Shown here: positions 22,803-29,104 of the stretch, piece after piece
Layout: each line of letters begins with the position of its first letter
Position numbering within the stretch: the first letter of the stretch is position 1
Assembly (NCBI RefSeq): GCF_002954325.1
Contig: NZ_MQVX01000001.1
Location: 2,648,768-2,712,767 of the forward strand
Length of the DNA: 64,000 bases
Source of the DNA: Aureicoccus marinus
Lineage (GTDB): Bacteria > Bacteroidota > Bacteroidia > Flavobacteriales > Flavobacteriaceae
Reading direction: 5' to 3'
Notes under the pieces: model-generated
Told to the model about the DNA's origin: nothing
The model's input: the letters and a program-made list of their open reading frames with translations, nothing else
Databases searched by the model: none
Translations under genes and position numbers: made by a program

Positions 22803-23435
22803 GTGCCATTATTCAAAAGCCTTACAATCAATTCTGGGACTCAACTGCTTCTGTGGAAGGTGACCGAGAGCGAAAGCGAACTGGCCGCTGAGGTAGAATT
22901 GACACCGTATTGTCAAGCCCGTATGCAGGGCATGAAATCCGAGATACACCGCCGGGCTTTTTTAAGCATCCGCCATCTTCTGGCCGAGCGGGGGTACCAG
23001 GACCGAGATTTGTACTACAATGAACAGGGGAAGCCGTTTTTAAAAGACAAGACCCGAATTTCCATTACCCATTCCGGCCCCTTTACGGGCATCATTCTAA
23101 GCACTTCAGAGGAGGTGGGAATAGATATCGAGCAACAGCGTTCTAAAATTATTCGCATCGCTCACAAGTTCACCCCTCTACAAGAATACCGAACCCTGGC
23201 CAATACCGAGGCACTGATTCGCAAACTCACGGTGGTTTGGGGGGTAAAGGAATCGCTTTACAAAATATACGGAACCCCGGGGCTGAGCTTCTTGAACAAC
23301 ATTGTGGTTCAGGATTTTGATTTGGGAGATGAGGAATTGCAGGCCACTGTACACTACAAAGGCCAAAAAAGCGCTTTTCGATGCACTTACGAAGAATTTG
23401 AAGGCTACACTTGTGTGTACGCCCGCCAACTATAA
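22803..23435 (+). CDS. 4-phosphopantetheinyl transferase superfamily protein
   Basis: A 210-residue Sfp/AcpT-type enzyme that loads the phosphopantetheine arm from CoA on carrier proteins. The magnesium and catalytic motifs are present: G106-I-D108-I-E110 and W146GVKE150SLYK154, with the ISITHSG segment before them. The start is GTG at 22803. It ends 8 bases before the thiamine-binding protein gene. It is probably the holo-ACP synthase of this lineage or a second PPTase. A link to the neighbouring thiamine genes is not expected. Confidence 0.9.
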
Positions 23436-23443
23436 ATCAAAGC

Positions 23444-23704
23444 ATGGAAATATCCGTCGAACTTACTTTGAGCCCTTTACAAGACAATTTTGAACCCCCC
23501 ATCATCGCCTTTATTCAGGCCCTGAGGTCTTCAGGACTAAGGGTTCTCGAAAATCCCTTGAGCACACAGGTTTACGGGCCATATGATCAGGTCATGGAGG
23601 TCCTAAACAAAGAGATTAAAACAGCCATGGAAGCCCTGGATCAGGGAGTCCTACTATTAAAAATGGTCAAGTCTGACCGAAGCGATTATGAACCCCATTT
23701 TTGA
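23444..23704 (+). CDS. thiamine-binding protein (YkoF/MTH1187 family)
   Basis: An 86-residue ferredoxin-like protein of the DUF77/YkoF family (MEISVELTLSPLQDNF to IAFIQALRSSGLRV). Members bind thiamine or HMP. The ATG at 23444 gives the family N-terminus. Its 3-prime end overlaps the PnuC-type permease gene by 17 bases. The pairing with a Pnu transporter and, downstream, a TPP-riboswitch-controlled receptor supports a thiamine salvage role, probably as a cytoplasmic buffer or carrier. Confidence 0.82.
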   Translation: MEISVELTLSPLQDNFEPPIIAFIQALRSSGLRVLENPLSTQVYGPYDQVMEVLNKEIKTAMEALDQGVLLLKMVKSDRSDYEPHF

Positions 23705-24329
23705 TTTTTTCTTCGAGATCTATTCGGGTCGCCCGACGCACCTGATCATCCTTGAAGCGATCGCTTTTGTCACCGGGATCGCCAGTGTCATCCTGGCCAA
23801 AAAGGAACATATTGGGGTGTATCCAACCGGATTGATCGCCACCACGATTACGGTCTACCTCTTCTGGGTCGATCAGCTTTTGGGGGACATGATGATGAAT
23901 TTTTACTATTCCATCATGAGCATTTACGGTTGGTATAACTGGGCTCGTAAAAAGGAGGGAGATCCGGTGGTTCACATTTCTAAAACGACCTCTAAAGAAC
24001 GTTGGATTGGGGCCGTTCTTTGCCTCTTTACGATGGGGGTAACCTATGGAGTTTACCGGGGTTTTGATGTGGATCTCGGCCCATTGAACTACATTGATAT
24101 CCTGACTTCAGGTATCTTCTTTACCGCCATGTGGTACATGGCCAACAAGAAGATTGCCAATTGGAGTCTCTGGATTTTGGGAGACTGCATCACGGTGCCT
24201 TTGTACGGATACCGGGGATGGGGTATGTTTGCCCTCCAGTTTTTGGTGTTTACGATTTTGGCAATTCAAGGTTATCGAGCGTGGAAAAGATCATACCAAA
24301 GCAACTTGAAAGAAGCGAACCTCCCCTAG
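23688..24329 (+). CDS. pnuC: PnuC/PnuT-family vitamin permease (probably thiamine)
   Basis: A 213-residue membrane protein with the Pnu family signature QLLGDMMMNFYYSIMSIYGW and the matching second half (WSLWILGDCITVPLYGYRGW). Pnu transporters move vitamins by facilitated diffusion and depend on intracellular phosphorylation for trapping. Position between a thiamine-binding protein and a NadR-like P-loop protein suggests the thiamine type (PnuT) rather than nicotinamide riboside. Both neighbours overlap it, by 17 and 49 bases. Confidence 0.88.
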   Translation: MNPIFDFFFEIYSGRPTHLIILEAIAFVTGIASVILAKKEHIGVYPTGLIATTITVYLFWVDQLLGDMMMNFYYSIMSIYGWYNWARKKEGDPVVHISKTTSKERWIGAVLCLFTMGVTYGVYRGFDVDLGPLNYIDILTSGIFFTAMWYMANKKIANWSLWILGDCITVPLYGYRGWGMFALQFLVFTILAIQGYRAWKRSYQSNLKEANLP

Positions 24330-24871
24330 TTCGGGTGGTACTCTTTGGGCCGGAATCTACCGGAAAAACAACCTTGTCCAGGCAGCTATCAGAGCACTAT
24401 CGGGCGCCCTGGGTGGCTGAATTCGCAAGGGACTTTTTACAGCGAAAATGGGACGCCCAGAAGGAAGTGTGTTCAGAGGCGGACTTAATTGATATCGCTA
24501 TCGGGCAAGTGGAGTCCGAAAATCAAGCAGCCGAACAGGCAGACCCCCTTCTGATTTGCGATACGGATGTTCTGGAAACCCTGGCCTATTCTTATTGGTA
24601 TTTTGGTTCGAAGGCGGATGAAAGGCTGGAAGAATCTGCACAGCAAGCTGAATACGACTTGTACTTACTGACTTATATCGATACCCCATGGACTCCGGAT
24701 GATCTTCGAGATCAGCCCGATGCGCGCCCGGAATTGTTTGCTCATTTTAAGAATTGCCTTGAGCGATTTGACCGAAATTTCGTTATTTTGAAAGGAGATC
24801 CTTATACCCGTTTTACCCGGGCTACTGAACTCATCGATAAACTTATTCATGCAGCTCAAAACAAGCGATAA
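24281..24871 (+). CDS. NadR-like P-loop ATPase/kinase of the thiamine locus
   Basis: A 196-residue AAA_28/NadR-C-like protein. The Walker A motif G23-PESTGK-T30 lies near the N-terminus, followed by WVAEFARDFLQRKW (typical of the ribosylnicotinamide kinase domain) and LLICDTDVLETLAY (Walker B-like). In NadR this domain phosphorylates nicotinamide riboside. Here the nicotinamide nucleotide adenylyltransferase domain is missing and the partners are thiamine genes, so a vitamin-trapping kinase for thiamine is plausible but unproven. The start is GTG at 24281, inside the end of pnuC (49-base overlap). Confidence 0.82.
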   Translation: MEKIIPKQLERSEPPLVRVVLFGPESTGKTTLSRQLSEHYRAPWVAEFARDFLQRKWDAQKEVCSEADLIDIAIGQVESENQAAEQADPLLICDTDVLETLAYSYWYFGSKADERLEESAQQAEYDLYLLTYIDTPWTPDDLRDQPDARPELFAHFKNCLERFDRNFVILKGDPYTRFTRATELIDKLIHAAQNKR

Positions 24872-24875
24872 GTAC

Positions 24876-26411
24876 ATGAACTTATTCAACGAAAAAGACC
24901 TGGAACAACTCCGGGTCAAAGGAATTACCAAAGAACAAGTCGAAGCGCAGATCAGAATTTTTGAACAGGGAATTCCCTTTGTTCAATTGCAGGAAGCCGC
25001 GGTTGTTGGCAAGGGAGTCAGACGTTTTACCGCCGAGGAAGAAAAGGAATTACAAGATTTTTTTGATGAGAAAAGCAAAGGACTCGCCCTCTTGAAATTT
25101 GTTCCTGCCTCGGGAGCAGCATCGCGTATGTTCAAGGCCTTATTTGCTTTTTTGGATGCGTATAATCCCCATAAGGAAGCCTTAGCGGACTACTGGAATC
25201 GCACCGGTGACGACGCCATGAAAACCTTTGTAGAAGGGATGGAACGCTTCCCTTTTTACCAGCAAATCCAAGAGCGTATTTCGGATCGTGTAACCTCTGC
25301 AGATCACGGGGTGTATTTGTTTGTCCAGGAATTACTCACCGAGGACGGCTTGAATTTTGGGTTTTATCCCAAAGGGTTATTGCCTTTTCACGCCTACCAA
25401 AAGGCCGCGACTCCTTTTGTTGAGCATTTAAAGGAAGCCGCCTTTTATGCAAAATCAGGAGGAAATGCAGCCCTTCATTTTACGATATCACCTCAGCACG
25501 AAGTGCTTTTTAAGGCGGAGGAAGAAAAGTCGGCCTCCGAGGTTGCCCTGGAGACCGATAGCCAGTTCTCCATTGGGTACTCCTTCCAAAAATCTTCCAC
25601 CGATACCCTGGCCGTCGATAAAGAGAACCAGCCTTTTCGAAATACGGACGGGAGTATCCTTTTTAGACCGGGGGGGCACGGGGCCCTGATCCAGAACCTC
25701 AATGAGGTGGATGCCGATGTTGTCTTTATTAAAAATATAGATAATGTGGTAACAGAGGAGAAGCTCGAGGTGGTGGGCAACAGCAAAAAGATGCTGGCTG
25801 GCCTCTTACTGCAACTGCAAGAGAAGTCTTTCCACTACGCGGCTCAACTGGAAGCAGGATCTGTTTCGGAAGATCAAATGAAGGAGATGTCCACCTTTTT
25901 GGAAAATCAGCTCAACTCTCCTTGCTCAAGCGATTATGCGGAATTCACAACAGAAGAAAAGCACCGCTGGTTAGCCGGTCAACTGAATCGTCCGATTCGC
26001 ATTTGTGGCATGGTGAAGAACGAAGGAGAACCTGGAGGAGGTCCTTTTTGGATCAAAGATGCTGCGGGCCAAGTGTCTCTTCAAATTATTGAATCTGCTC
26101 AAATCGATCGGGATAACCCACAGCAGGATGCCATCTTGCAGAATTCAACCCACTTCAATCCGGTGGACCTCATTTGTGGGTTAAAGAACCACAAGGGAGA
26201 AAAATACAACCTCCTTGATTTCGTCGATCATGAACAAGGATTCATCACGGCTAAATCAAAAGATGGAAAAGAACTAAAAGCTCTAGAACTTCCCGGTTTA
26301 TGGAATGGAGCTATGGCCTTTTGGAATACCATCTTTGTTGAGGTGCCCTTGGTCACTTTTAATCCGGTAAAAACCGTTAATGACCTGCTTAAACCCAGTC
26401 ATCAGGCATAA
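24876..26411 (+). CDS. DUF4301 protein, possibly UDPGP-like nucleotidyltransferase
   Basis: A 511-residue cytoplasmic protein of family DUF4301. Three segments recall the UDPGP nucleotidyltransferase fold: LKFVPASGAASRMF (residues 73-86) like the NTP-binding glycine-rich loop, PGGHGAL (265-271) like the GHGD motif, and VFIKNIDNV (283-291) like the sugar-nucleotide NxDN motif. This is motif reading, not an alignment. The gene starts 4 bases after the NadR-like gene and ends before a strong terminator. An ATG at 24849 is possible but overlaps the upstream gene. The substrate is unknown. Confidence 0.8.
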   Translation: MNLFNEKDLEQLRVKGITKEQVEAQIRIFEQGIPFVQLQEAAVVGKGVRRFTAEEEKELQDFFDEKSKGLALLKFVPASGAASRMFKALFAFLDAYNPHKEALADYWNRTGDDAMKTFVEGMERFPFYQQIQERISDRVTSADHGVYLFVQELLTEDGLNFGFYPKGLLPFHAYQKAATPFVEHLKEAAFYAKSGGNAALHFTISPQHEVLFKAEEEKSASEVALETDSQFSIGYSFQKSSTDTLAVDKENQPFRNTDGSILFRPGGHGALIQNLNEVDADVVFIKNIDNVVTEEKLEVVGNSKKMLAGLLLQLQEKSFHYAAQLEAGSVSEDQMKEMSTFLENQLNSPCSSDYAEFTTEEKHRWLAGQLNRPIRICGMVKNEGEPGGGPFWIKDAAGQVSLQIIESAQIDRDNPQQDAILQNSTHFNPVDLICGLKNHKGEKYNLLDFVDHEQGFITAKSKDGKELKALELPGLWNGAMAFWNTIFVEVPLVTFNPVKTVNDLLKPSHQA

Positions 26412-26440
26412 AATTACAAGAATAAAACACTGAAAAACAG

Positions 26441-26468
26441 CCGTCTAAATAGTTTAGGCGGTTTTTTT
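26441..26468 (+). terminator. terminator of the thiamine-binding/pnuC/kinase/DUF4301 operon
   Basis: A nine-bp stem, CCGTCTAAA with TTTAGGCGG (one U-G pair), with a three-base loop and a seven-U tract. It lies 30 bases after the DUF4301 stop. It closes the first thiamine operon before the riboswitch region. Confidence 0.88.
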
Positions 26469-26751
26469 GCGTCTAAATGTGACCTCCAGAATTATTTGGT
26501 GTCTGAATAGATGAAGACCCACAAGAGGGGATCCGATAAAGAGACATAATCCGGTTATTTGATTGATTACCGGTTTTTTGGTTGGTTGGTTTGATTGAAA
26601 GGGCTGCAGAGGCTCTGGCTGATGTGGCCCCTTTCTAAAATCACGACCTCATACAGGACGCGGAGAATGCTAGATTGAACACTAACCTCAGCATTTCCAG
26701 TTCCCCCCGAAATCGGGAACACAAGGCTGCTTCGGCAGCCTTTTTTCTTTT
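26469..26751. other. non-coding stretch with tandem hairpins, no gene recognised
   Basis: About 280 bases with no convincing protein gene. From left to right: a weak CCGGT/ACCGG hairpin (26552-26574) followed by six T, a GTTCCC/GGGAAC hairpin (26699-26719), and a strong terminator-like hairpin with a UUCG loop (26723-26746). The region separates the first thiamine operon from the promoter of the TPP riboswitch. It could encode a small RNA or be spacer with insulation. Confidence 0.5.
26723..26746 (+). terminator. UUCG-loop terminator-like hairpin upstream of the TPP riboswitch
   Basis: AAGGCTGC (26723-26730) pairs with GCAGCCTT (26735-26742) around a stabilising TTCG loop, followed by more T. 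It lies just before the -7 element at 26752-26759 and may insulate the receptor from upstream transcription. Confidence 0.65.
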
Positions 26752-26759: not shown

Positions 26760-26765
26760 CGCCGT

Positions 26766-26845
26766 CTCAACAAGGGGTGCTCTGAGAATGGGCTGAGATT
26801 ATACCCGATGAACCTGGGCGGGTAATGCTGCCAAGGGATTCCAAC
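26766..26845 (+). promoter_or_regulatory. TPP (THI-box) riboswitch
   Basis: All core segments are visible: AAGGGGTGC, two CTGAGA motifs (26782-26787 and 26793-26798), the ATACCC strand, GAACCTG, and GGTAATGC followed by CAAGGGAT. These form the pyrimidine- and pyrophosphate-sensor arms of the TPP aptamer. A short GCTG/CAGC hairpin (26847-26863) follows and may be part of the expression platform. It controls the TonB-dependent receptor that begins 75 bases later, presumably lowering its expression when TPP is plentiful. Confidence 0.95.
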
Positions 26846-26920
26846 AAGCTGTCTGCAAGGCAGCCTCTTTAAATCATTAACCAGAATAATGACCCCTTTT
26901 ATTCGTAAACATGCTTACGG

Positions 26921-29104
26921 ATGAAAACTTTATTCGCATCATTGGCCCTATTCGGCCTAGTGGGCTTCGTGCAAGCCCAAAACACCGAGCCCGACTCGGT
27001 GAAACAAAAAGAAGTTAAACTCAAGGAGGTGGTTGTGTCTTCTTCACGAGCTTCCTCGATTACACCGGTAACCTTTGTCAATTTTGAAAAGGCCGACATA
27101 GCCAAGGTCAATTTAGGACAGGATTTACCTGTACTTCTCAACTATTTACCTGCTGTTGTTTCTACCACTTTTGACGGTACGGGAGTAGGGTACACAGACT
27201 ACCGTATTCGTGGTGCAGACAACTCCCGAATCAACGTGACCATCAATGGTATTCCTTATAACGATGCCGACAGCCAAACGACCTTCTTTGTCAACTTGCA
27301 GGATTTTGCCAGTTCGATCGAGAACATTCAAATTCAACGAGGAGTGGGGACTTCCACCAACGGAGCGGGTGCCTTCGGGGCCAGTATCAATATTTTGACA
27401 GACCGTGCCTCCGATGAAGCTTTTGCTTCAGTCAGTACAGGGATTGGAAGCTTTGGCACCAACCGCCAGAGCATCAAATTTGGAACTGGGGCCCTAGGGG
27501 ATGGCTTCTCTTTTTCTGGACGCCTTTCTCGTATTGCTTCAGACGGCTATGTCGATCGAGCGACTTCTGAACTCAAGTCCTACTTTTTGCAAGGGGACTA
27601 TGTAAAAGGAGAAACCCGCCTACAGGCCATCACTTTTGGGGGAACCGAAAGAACGGGATTGTCCTTCTTTGGACTCGATCAAGCCGGTCTCGATATGGAT
27701 CGCCGAATGAATTTTGACGGGTTCTATTTTGACCGTGACGGCAATCAGCAGATTTATCAAAACCAGACGGACAACTATGCCCAAAACCATTTCCACTTGC
27801 ATTGGAATCAGGGGTGGAATAGCAATTGGCGCTCTCAGTTTTCGCTTCATTACACCCAAAGTGCAGGCTTCTTCGAACAAATGAATGACGATGCCTCTTT
27901 GAGTGCTTACCGCTTGGATGATTTTACCTTCAACGGAGAAGCGCAAACCACGGCAGACTTGGCTACTCAAGCCCACTTGAACAGTGATTTTTATGGAGGA
28001 GTTTTTAGTTTGACGTATCAGAAAGATCAATTGGAGTGGATTACCGGAGGTAGCTTTAATTACTACGACGGGATACAGTTCGGAGAAATAGTCAGCGCGG
28101 ATTTAGCTCTACTTCCTGGAAGACCTTTCCGTTTTTACGAAAACACCACAGTCAAAACCGATTTGAGTGTTTACTCAAAAGCGAATTTTGAATTGGCGCC
28201 GAACCTCAACGGTTTCGCGGACCTGCAGTTTAGAAGAGTGGATTACGAAGCGTCAGGAACCCTTTTGGAATTGGGAGCACAACTAGATGTGGACGAGACC
28301 TACAACTTCTTTAACCCCAAAGCGGGATTGTCTTATCAACTCCAGCCGGGAAGTCGTTTGTACCTTTCTTGGGCAAGATCTCACCGCGAGCCAGCCCGTG
28401 TTGATTTCGAAAACGGTTCGCCTGAAGCGGAGCGTTTGGATGACTTTGAGTTGGGTTGGAGAACCCAAAACCGCACTTTTCAATTGGGAGCCAATGTGTA
28501 CTACATGCTCTTCAATAACCAATTGGTCTTGACGGGAGCCTTGGATGAGGTTGGATTTCCGATTCGCCAAAACAGTGGAAAGAGCTATCGTTTAGGGATT
28601 GAATTGGACGCACAATGGCAACCCCATCCCAAGTGGACCATTGCCCCCAATGTAGCGCTAAGCGAGAACAAGAACCAGGACTTTATTACACCATTGGATG
28701 GGACTCTTCAAAATCTGGGAGATACGGATATTTCTTTTTCTCCCTCAGTGGTTGCGGGCAACCGGATTGAATTTCGCCCGGATGACAGCTGGAGTTTTAC
28801 CCTTTTCTCTAAGTATGTTGGCGAGCAGTTTATGTCAAATACCGAAGCAGCGAATTCCCGTTTGGAATCTTACTTTGTACAAGATCTAAACTTGCAGTAC
28901 CAAACCGGTTCTTTCGGATTTGTAAAAAAGTTGGTGTTGCAGGGACAGATCAACAACCTGTTGGACCTGGAGTATGAGAATAACGGATACTACTTCACCT
29001 TTGATGTACCGGATGGTTCAGGGGGAGTAAGTACCTTGGATGGGAATGGGTTTTATCCTCAGGCAGGAATCAACTTCCTCTTAGGAGCAACACTTCATTT
29101 CTAG
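26921..29104 (+). CDS. TonB-dependent outer membrane receptor, probably for thiamine
   Basis: A 727-residue TonB-dependent receptor. Signal peptide ending FVQAQ, a TonB-box/plug region (residues about 35-170: LKEVVVSSSRASSI, GYTDYRIRGADNSRINVTING, IQIQRGVGTSTNGAGAFGAS) and a beta-barrel with LYLSWARSHREPARVD and the C-terminal FLLGATLHF. No SusC-type N-terminal carboxypeptidase-regulatory domain is seen, so it is the siderophore/vitamin type. The TPP riboswitch in its leader makes thiamine or a thiamine derivative the likely ligand. Confidence 0.9.
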   Translation: MKTLFASLALFGLVGFVQAQNTEPDSVKQKEVKLKEVVVSSSRASSITPVTFVNFEKADIAKVNLGQDLPVLLNYLPAVVSTTFDGTGVGYTDYRIRGADNSRINVTINGIPYNDADSQTTFFVNLQDFASSIENIQIQRGVGTSTNGAGAFGASINILTDRASDEAFASVSTGIGSFGTNRQSIKFGTGALGDGFSFSGRLSRIASDGYVDRATSELKSYFLQGDYVKGETRLQAITFGGTERTGLSFFGLDQAGLDMDRRMNFDGFYFDRDGNQQIYQNQTDNYAQNHFHLHWNQGWNSNWRSQFSLHYTQSAGFFEQMNDDASLSAYRLDDFTFNGEAQTTADLATQAHLNSDFYGGVFSLTYQKDQLEWITGGSFNYYDGIQFGEIVSADLALLPGRPFRFYENTTVKTDLSVYSKANFELAPNLNGFADLQFRRVDYEASGTLLELGAQLDVDETYNFFNPKAGLSYQLQPGSRLYLSWARSHREPARVDFENGSPEAERLDDFELGWRTQNRTFQLGANVYYMLFNNQLVLTGALDEVGFPIRQNSGKSYRLGIELDAQWQPHPKWTIAPNVALSENKNQDFITPLDGTLQNLGDTDISFSPSVVAGNRIEFRPDDSWSFTLFSKYVGEQFMSNTEAANSRLESYFVQDLNLQYQTGSFGFVKKLVLQGQINNLLDLEYENNGYYFTFDVPDGSGGVSTLDGNGFYPQAGINFLLGATLHF

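Follow-up and report, generated by a model that had tools for sequence, protein, structure and literature searches.

Genetic organisation of the DUF4301 locus

The window (the whole stretch of DNA analysed, 64,000 nucleotides in length) was placed in the Flavobacteriaceae by its named relatives. Translation of 24876–26411 gave a protein of 511 amino acids with no internal stops, and residues 6–510 of this protein matched PF14134 (DUF4301) with 710 bits against a gathering score of 27, which makes it a full-length member of the family. An in-frame ATG was also present upstream, at 24849; the starts of the homologues resemble the ATG at 24876. The gene had previously been described as lying inside a thiamine locus, which is correct as a statement of position: its immediate upstream neighbours are the genes for a thiamine-binding protein (Thiamine_BP), a transporter of the PnuC/PnuT type and a NadR-like kinase (Table 1). 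The transporter gene overlaps its neighbours at both ends, and the stop codon of the kinase gene is separated from the start of DUF4301 by 4 bases.

Table 1. Positions in the window of the genes, protein segments and RNA elements of the DUF4301 locus
Feature	Position	Strand	Basis or remark
Phosphopantetheinyl transferase gene	22803	+	upstream of Thiamine_BP
Thiamine-binding protein (MTH1187/YkoF type), in the operon of DUF4301	23411..23704	+	PF01910, E 1.9e-5
PnuC-family transporter, probably PnuT (thiamine)	23688..24329	+	PF04973, E 2.1e-48
NadR ribosylnicotinamide-kinase-like P-loop kinase, start codon uncertain	~24281..24871	+	PF13521, E 3.4e-38
DUF4301 protein, 511 aa, UDPGP-like fold (predicted)	24876..26411	+	PF14134, E 2.1e-213; AlphaFold; Foldseek and VIA-align
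Residues 74–87, KFVPASGAASRMFK; putative nucleotide-binding loop counterpart, shortened	25095..25136	+	register assigned by motif
Residues 98–190, mostly helical DUF4301-specific insertion	25167..25445	+	spacing, model helices, conservation
Q238, putative counterpart of uridine-contacting Gln162 of Arabidopsis UGPase	25587..25589	+	71/71 and spacing
Residues 265–271, PGGHGAL, putative phosphate/uridine loop	25668..25688	+	P, G, H, G 71/71; collinear with yeast PPGHG
Residues 286–291, KNIDNV	25731..25748	+	invariant 71/71 except I288, V291
Residues 381–390, KNEGEPGGGP, Gly-rich	26016..26045	+	N382, G384, G387–P390 invariant 71/71
Residues 402–431, with E406 and N428	26079..26168	+	both 71/71; aligned to yeast LLEVAQV...FNTNNL
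Residues 495–500, FNPVKT	26358..26375	+	K499 71/71; aligned with yeast FLPVKTCSDLL
Terminator-like hairpin after DUF4301	26439..26463	+	11-pair stem and T run
TPP riboswitch, before TonB receptor gene	26763..26855	+	RF00059, 41.0 bits, E 1.7e-5
TonB-dependent outer-membrane receptor	26921..29104	+	PF00593 and PF07715; riboswitch upstream

No TPP riboswitch was found upstream of DUF4301; the sole TPP match was downstream, beyond the terminator-like hairpin, and its score was lower than the Rfam gathering score of 54.3. As this match lies past the hairpin and before the TonB receptor gene, it is predicted from its position to serve the receptor gene and not DUF4301. The number of terminator-like sites in the region was that expected by chance, which makes the hairpin at 26439–26463 weak evidence. 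The substrate of the receptor is probably thiamine. An arrangement in which a riboswitch precedes DUF4301 on one transcript was not seen in the sequence layout, and control of DUF4301 by TPP was rejected because no riboswitch lies 5′ of the operon genes.

Conservation of the DUF4301 protein

DUF4301 is a Bacteroidota family that has so far been annotated only as being of unknown function. It was present in 66 of 395 sampled Bacteroidota genomes (approximately one sixth), with one copy in each and split matches in two genomes, and was strongly conserved, with a mean column identity of ~59% across the phylum. Three motifs of the window protein, LKFVPASGAASRMF (residues 73–86), PGGHGAL (residues 265–271) and VFIKNIDNV (residues 283–291), lie exactly where the preliminary description of the locus had put them. 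P77–A82, R84–F86, R264, P265, G267–G269, K286, N287, D289 and N290 were identical in 71 of 71 homologues, and chance matches are excluded for the three motifs.

Predicted fold and relationship to UDPGP proteins

An AlphaFold model of DUF4301 built from the 71 homologues had a pLDDT of 93.1 and a pTM of 0.91. When this model was compared with the PDB using Foldseek, all 50 of the matches listed were UGPase, UAP or USP structures (best E value 7.7e-11). Alignment with VIA-align gave a Z score of 21.4 over 331 residues (rmsd 3.3) for human UGPase and of 17–21 for UAP1/AGX1 (UDP-GlcNAc pyrophosphorylase) and USP, so that over its whole chain the predicted model has a UGPase/UAP-type fold. A structure-based search had been suggested previously, with a different fold as the outcome that would speak against a UDPGP nucleotidyltransferase; UGPase, UAP and USP were matched first and no different fold was seen. 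The fold similarity is accompanied by low sequence identity, 12–20% between DUF4301 and eukaryotic UGPases (PF01704; human UGP2 and plant UGPase) and 10–16% for UAP1/AGX1 and USP. The bacterial GlmU uridylyltransferase domain shares the core nucleotidyltransferase fold, but its structural score was lower (Z ~16 over 227 residues). GlmU is not known to have the C-terminal motifs of the UGPase type.

Sequence searches pointed in the same direction as the model. Of the 71 DUF4301 members, 39 matched PF01704 (UDPGP) at E<0.1, the lowest E value being 9.6e-6, and any other family was matched by 3 of them at most; the window protein itself scored 15 bits, under the 22-bit Pfam gathering cut-off. Searching the genomes for PF01704 recovered one DUF4301 gene (E 5.5e-4). 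A profile search of the PDB with 27 sequences picked yeast UGPase weakly (E 0.57), in an alignment where the GHG, DN, E-x-AQ and FN stretches and the C-terminal PVKT-DLL were collinear between the two proteins; when the search was repeated with 71 sequences (the larger alignment A2), UGPase was not among the matches listed. A Bacteroidota search for UDPGP proteins that could serve as a comparison profile returned partial matches only. The best explanation of the model and the sequence matches is that DUF4301 forms a divergent branch in Bacteroidota, of the eukaryotic UGPase/UAP type, within the UDPGP nucleotidyltransferase superfamily. It is not placed in PF01704 itself, because the score of the window protein is under the cut-off and the canonical G-loop is altered.

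Putative active-site residues

In Arabidopsis UGPase, uridine is contacted by Gln162, Gly191 and Gly87, glucose by Asn220, Gly258, Glu271, Asn293 and Leu85, and the phosphates by His192, Lys256 and Lys99 (PMC5832301). Mutation of N251, D253, K127 or K396 of human UGP reduced activity to ≤0.15%; the N251L and D253L mutants had almost no activity and K396A retained 0.04% (PMC5381698). Counterparts of these residues in DUF4301 were assigned from the yeast UGPase alignment for H268, N287, D289, E406, N428 and K499, and by motif and spacing for Q238 and the G-loop. G267 and H268 correspond to Gly191 and His192 of plant UGPase, N287 and D289 to N251 and D253 of human UGP, E406 and N428 to Glu271 and Asn293, which contact the sugar in plant UGPase, and K499 to the catalytic K396 of human UGP. 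Q238, G267, H268, N287, D289, E406, N428 and K499 were invariant in 71 of 71 homologues, and the GHG loop, the N-x-D motif, the Glu and Asn that contact sugar and the C-terminal Lys occur in the same order as in yeast UGPase. The spacing of Gln, Gly and His (29/30) and that of Glu and Asn (22) are the same in DUF4301 and plant UGPase. Most of the uridine-, phosphate- and sugar-contact residues of UGPases thus appear to be kept in DUF4301; the earlier prediction of a UDPGP nucleotidyltransferase is supported at the level of fold, sequence and individual residues.

The nucleotide-binding loop is one place where DUF4301 and the eukaryotic UGPases differ. The UGPase form of this loop is LNGGxGTxMG..PK and the GlmU-type form is LAAGxGTRM. 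DUF4301 has PASGAASRMFK in place of L-x-G-G-x-G-T-x-M-G with its end Lys, and this sequence is closer to the GlmU pattern (x-A-x-G-x-x-T/S-R-M). Residues 74–87 were invariant in 71 of 71 homologues save V76, S83 and K87, the last of which was kept in 70 of 71. Of the UGPase loop, the second Gly and the Met are the sole residues retained, and the Lys is at M+2 and not M+6; in-register conservation of the alpha-phosphate Lys (K127 in human, K99 in Arabidopsis) and of the Gly-Gly pair is absent. K87 may stand in for the G-loop Lys in another register. From its position, KNEGEPGGGP is likely to be the counterpart of the sugar-binding loop, whose beta-phosphate Lys showed no obvious conservation in DUF4301. 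A further difference is the distance from the G-loop to the uridine-contacting Gln, 159 residues in DUF4301 compared to 75 in plant UGPase (PMC5832301), which amounts to an insertion of ~85 residues. P165, K166, F171, H172 and E187 were invariant within the segment 98–190.

Distribution and gene neighbourhood in Bacteroidota

The kinase gene was adjacent to DUF4301 in 32 of the 36 Flavobacteriaceae genomes that have DUF4301, and in 21 of these 32 one open frame of >700 amino acids ran through both; the fusion was also found in two further genera. At L018, L022–L026 and L028–L030, which represent several genera, kinase and DUF4301 shared a single open frame of ~720–800 codons. Among 70 loci with enough upstream DNA, PnuT was upstream in 61 and the kinase in 56. 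The operon Thiamine_BP–PnuT–NadR-like kinase–DUF4301 is genuine and occurs widely across the Flavobacteriaceae, and the fusions and the adjacency suggest some functional link within this family.

Outside the Flavobacteriaceae, kinase and DUF4301 were adjacent in 0 of 8 same-class genomes that have both genes, and DUF4301 never adjoined PnuT–kinase genes at the loci examined. In two Bacteroidales regions with annotation, one from Bacteroides finegoldii and one from Parabacteroides distasonis, it adjoins relA/spoT, and its neighbours at further loci were radical SAM, TPR, redox or response-regulator genes; no functional theme emerged from these neighbours. The thiamine neighbourhood is a trait of the Flavobacteriaceae, DUF4301 having unrelated neighbours in the other Bacteroidota examined, and for the most part a thiamine function of DUF4301 is not supported.

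DUF4301 and the kinase were also found apart within the Flavobacteriaceae, in both directions, and a thiamine-specific role was rejected as the main reading on this ground. Nine Flavobacterium-type genomes kept DUF4301 with no kinase found, and thiamine pyrophosphokinase (TPK) was encoded elsewhere in 9 of 9; one of them (L027, genome G335) carried a degenerate kinase remnant, its P-loop lost, fused to DUF4301. Three Aquimarina genomes (G439–G441) retained DUF4301 behind a phosphopantetheinyl transferase gene, with PnuT, kinase and TonB matches absent from the 17.5 kb around it and neither the kinase nor TPK found genome-wide. Conversely, five Flavobacteriaceae genomes (L149–L153) had the kinase operon and no DUF4301. 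In a 42-genus sample, 3 of 3 kinase-lacking genomes were also without DUF4301 (Fisher p 0.0017, uncorrected for kinship). Taken over these genomes, DUF4301 is not kept and lost with the thiamine salvage genes.

The NadR-like kinase

Curated models label the window kinase a ribosylnicotinamide kinase and place it nearest to NadR, and the transporter nearest to PnuC. TPK was present in 2 of 42 kinase-positive genomes compared to 11 of 15 kinase-negative genomes (Fisher p 5e-7, uncorrected for kinship, 12 of the 15 having been selected because the kinase was missing beside DUF4301). Since the kinase trades places with TPK across genomes, its substrate would be thiamine, and it is probably a thiamine kinase working with ThiL, which was present in 42 of 42 Flavobacteriaceae genomes. 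If so, 'ribosylnicotinamide kinase' annotations would need correction. The Bacteroides TPP-regulated OMthi-pnuT-tnr3 thiamine locus offers a comparison, its kinase being a thiamine pyrophosphokinase (tnr3) (PMC5613172). A PnuT transporter, a TonB receptor and a TPP riboswitch are found at the window locus too, with a NadR-like kinase and not tnr3.

Proposed function of DUF4301 and alternatives

The fold and the retained residues make it probable that DUF4301 is a UDPGP-superfamily enzyme resembling UTP:sugar-1-phosphate uridylyltransferases. Such an enzyme would transfer a nucleotidyl group to a sugar-1-phosphate with release of pyrophosphate, the donor most likely being UTP and the group UMP. 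Uridine is favoured as the base on account of Q238, which would read it, and a sugar-1-phosphate as the acceptor because the sugar-contact positions are retained. The nucleotide would be held by the G-loop and the GGH loop, the alpha-phosphate neutralised by K499 and the sugar held by N287, E406 and N428, and the family-specific helical insertion may close over the acceptor. In the Flavobacteriaceae, DUF4301 has the orientation of the genes for thiamine uptake and in some cases forms a fusion with them, but its retention is independent of them; the simplest view would be that these genes are expressed together and that some genera have the kinase domain tethered, with no step in thiamine salvage. 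A pseudoenzyme, in which a catalytically dead UDPGP fold serves in nucleotide sensing or as a scaffold, would account for the altered G-loop and its missing in-register Lys; we consider this unlikely, as the invariance of most catalytic and many surrounding residues throughout the phylum would be unusual for a pseudoenzyme.

The activation or modification of a thiamine compound, one of two roles offered in the preliminary description, was not borne out. Here the kinase would produce thiamine monophosphate and DUF4301 would nucleotidylate it. The frequent position of PnuT and the kinase upstream of DUF4301 in the sampled Flavobacteriaceae, the fusions and the three kinase-lacking genomes without DUF4301 all favour this role, which we nevertheless regard as quite unlikely: kinase and ThiL already yield TPP, so that thiamine salvage has no gap for a nucleotidyltransferase, DUF4301 persists without the kinase in the Flavobacterium-type and Aquimarina genomes (the latter having no kinase of either type) and stands alone in other families, the riboswitch is predicted to serve the next transcription unit, and the sugar-contact residues are kept. 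That the kinase–DUF4301 pair or fusion specifically makes NDP-thiamine by UDPGP chemistry is very unlikely; if true, it would be a new Flavobacteriaceae thiamine metabolite pathway recruited from a sugar-activating ancestor. Nicotinamide riboside salvage, with import by PnuC, conversion to NMN by the kinase and DUF4301 replacing the NadR adenylyltransferase domain in making NAD, is suggested by the curated models and by the resemblance of the fusion to NadR, itself a fused kinase and nucleotidyltransferase. We consider it extremely improbable, given that the Thiamine_BP gene overlaps that of the transporter, that a TPP riboswitch and a TonB gene lie downstream, that the exchange with TPK indicates a thiamine substrate and that DUF4301 occurs without either transporter or kinase; an NMN adenylyltransferase was accordingly set aside as unlikely in view of the thiamine neighbours and the TPK exchange. 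The conserved sugar-contact residues are in better agreement with the other role offered, that with a sugar nucleotide, than with the thiamine option. The Flavobacteriaceae neighbourhood is therefore no ground for annotating DUF4301 as a thiamine enzyme, and its placement with UDP-sugar-type pyrophosphorylases, in a family present in gut Bacteroides and Parabacteroides, gives it a directly testable activity.

Other features of the loci

At the Aquimarina loci without thiamine genes, a 1145 amino acid protein follows DUF4301 (L057; L064, 9654–13096); the L057 copy, which was searched, had no Pfam match. In the window, the non-coding stretch 26464–26742 between the terminator-like hairpins at 26439–26463 and 26723–26742 could hold a small transcript; the match to the PhrS sRNA at 26507–26750 was weak (19 bits, E 0.21). 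TPP elements recognised by their core motif before TonB genes at L032, L037, L044 and L067 were, like that of the window, under the Rfam cut-off, so standard annotation would miss them. The TPP core motif was present in 39 of the 58 loci having a TonB gene.
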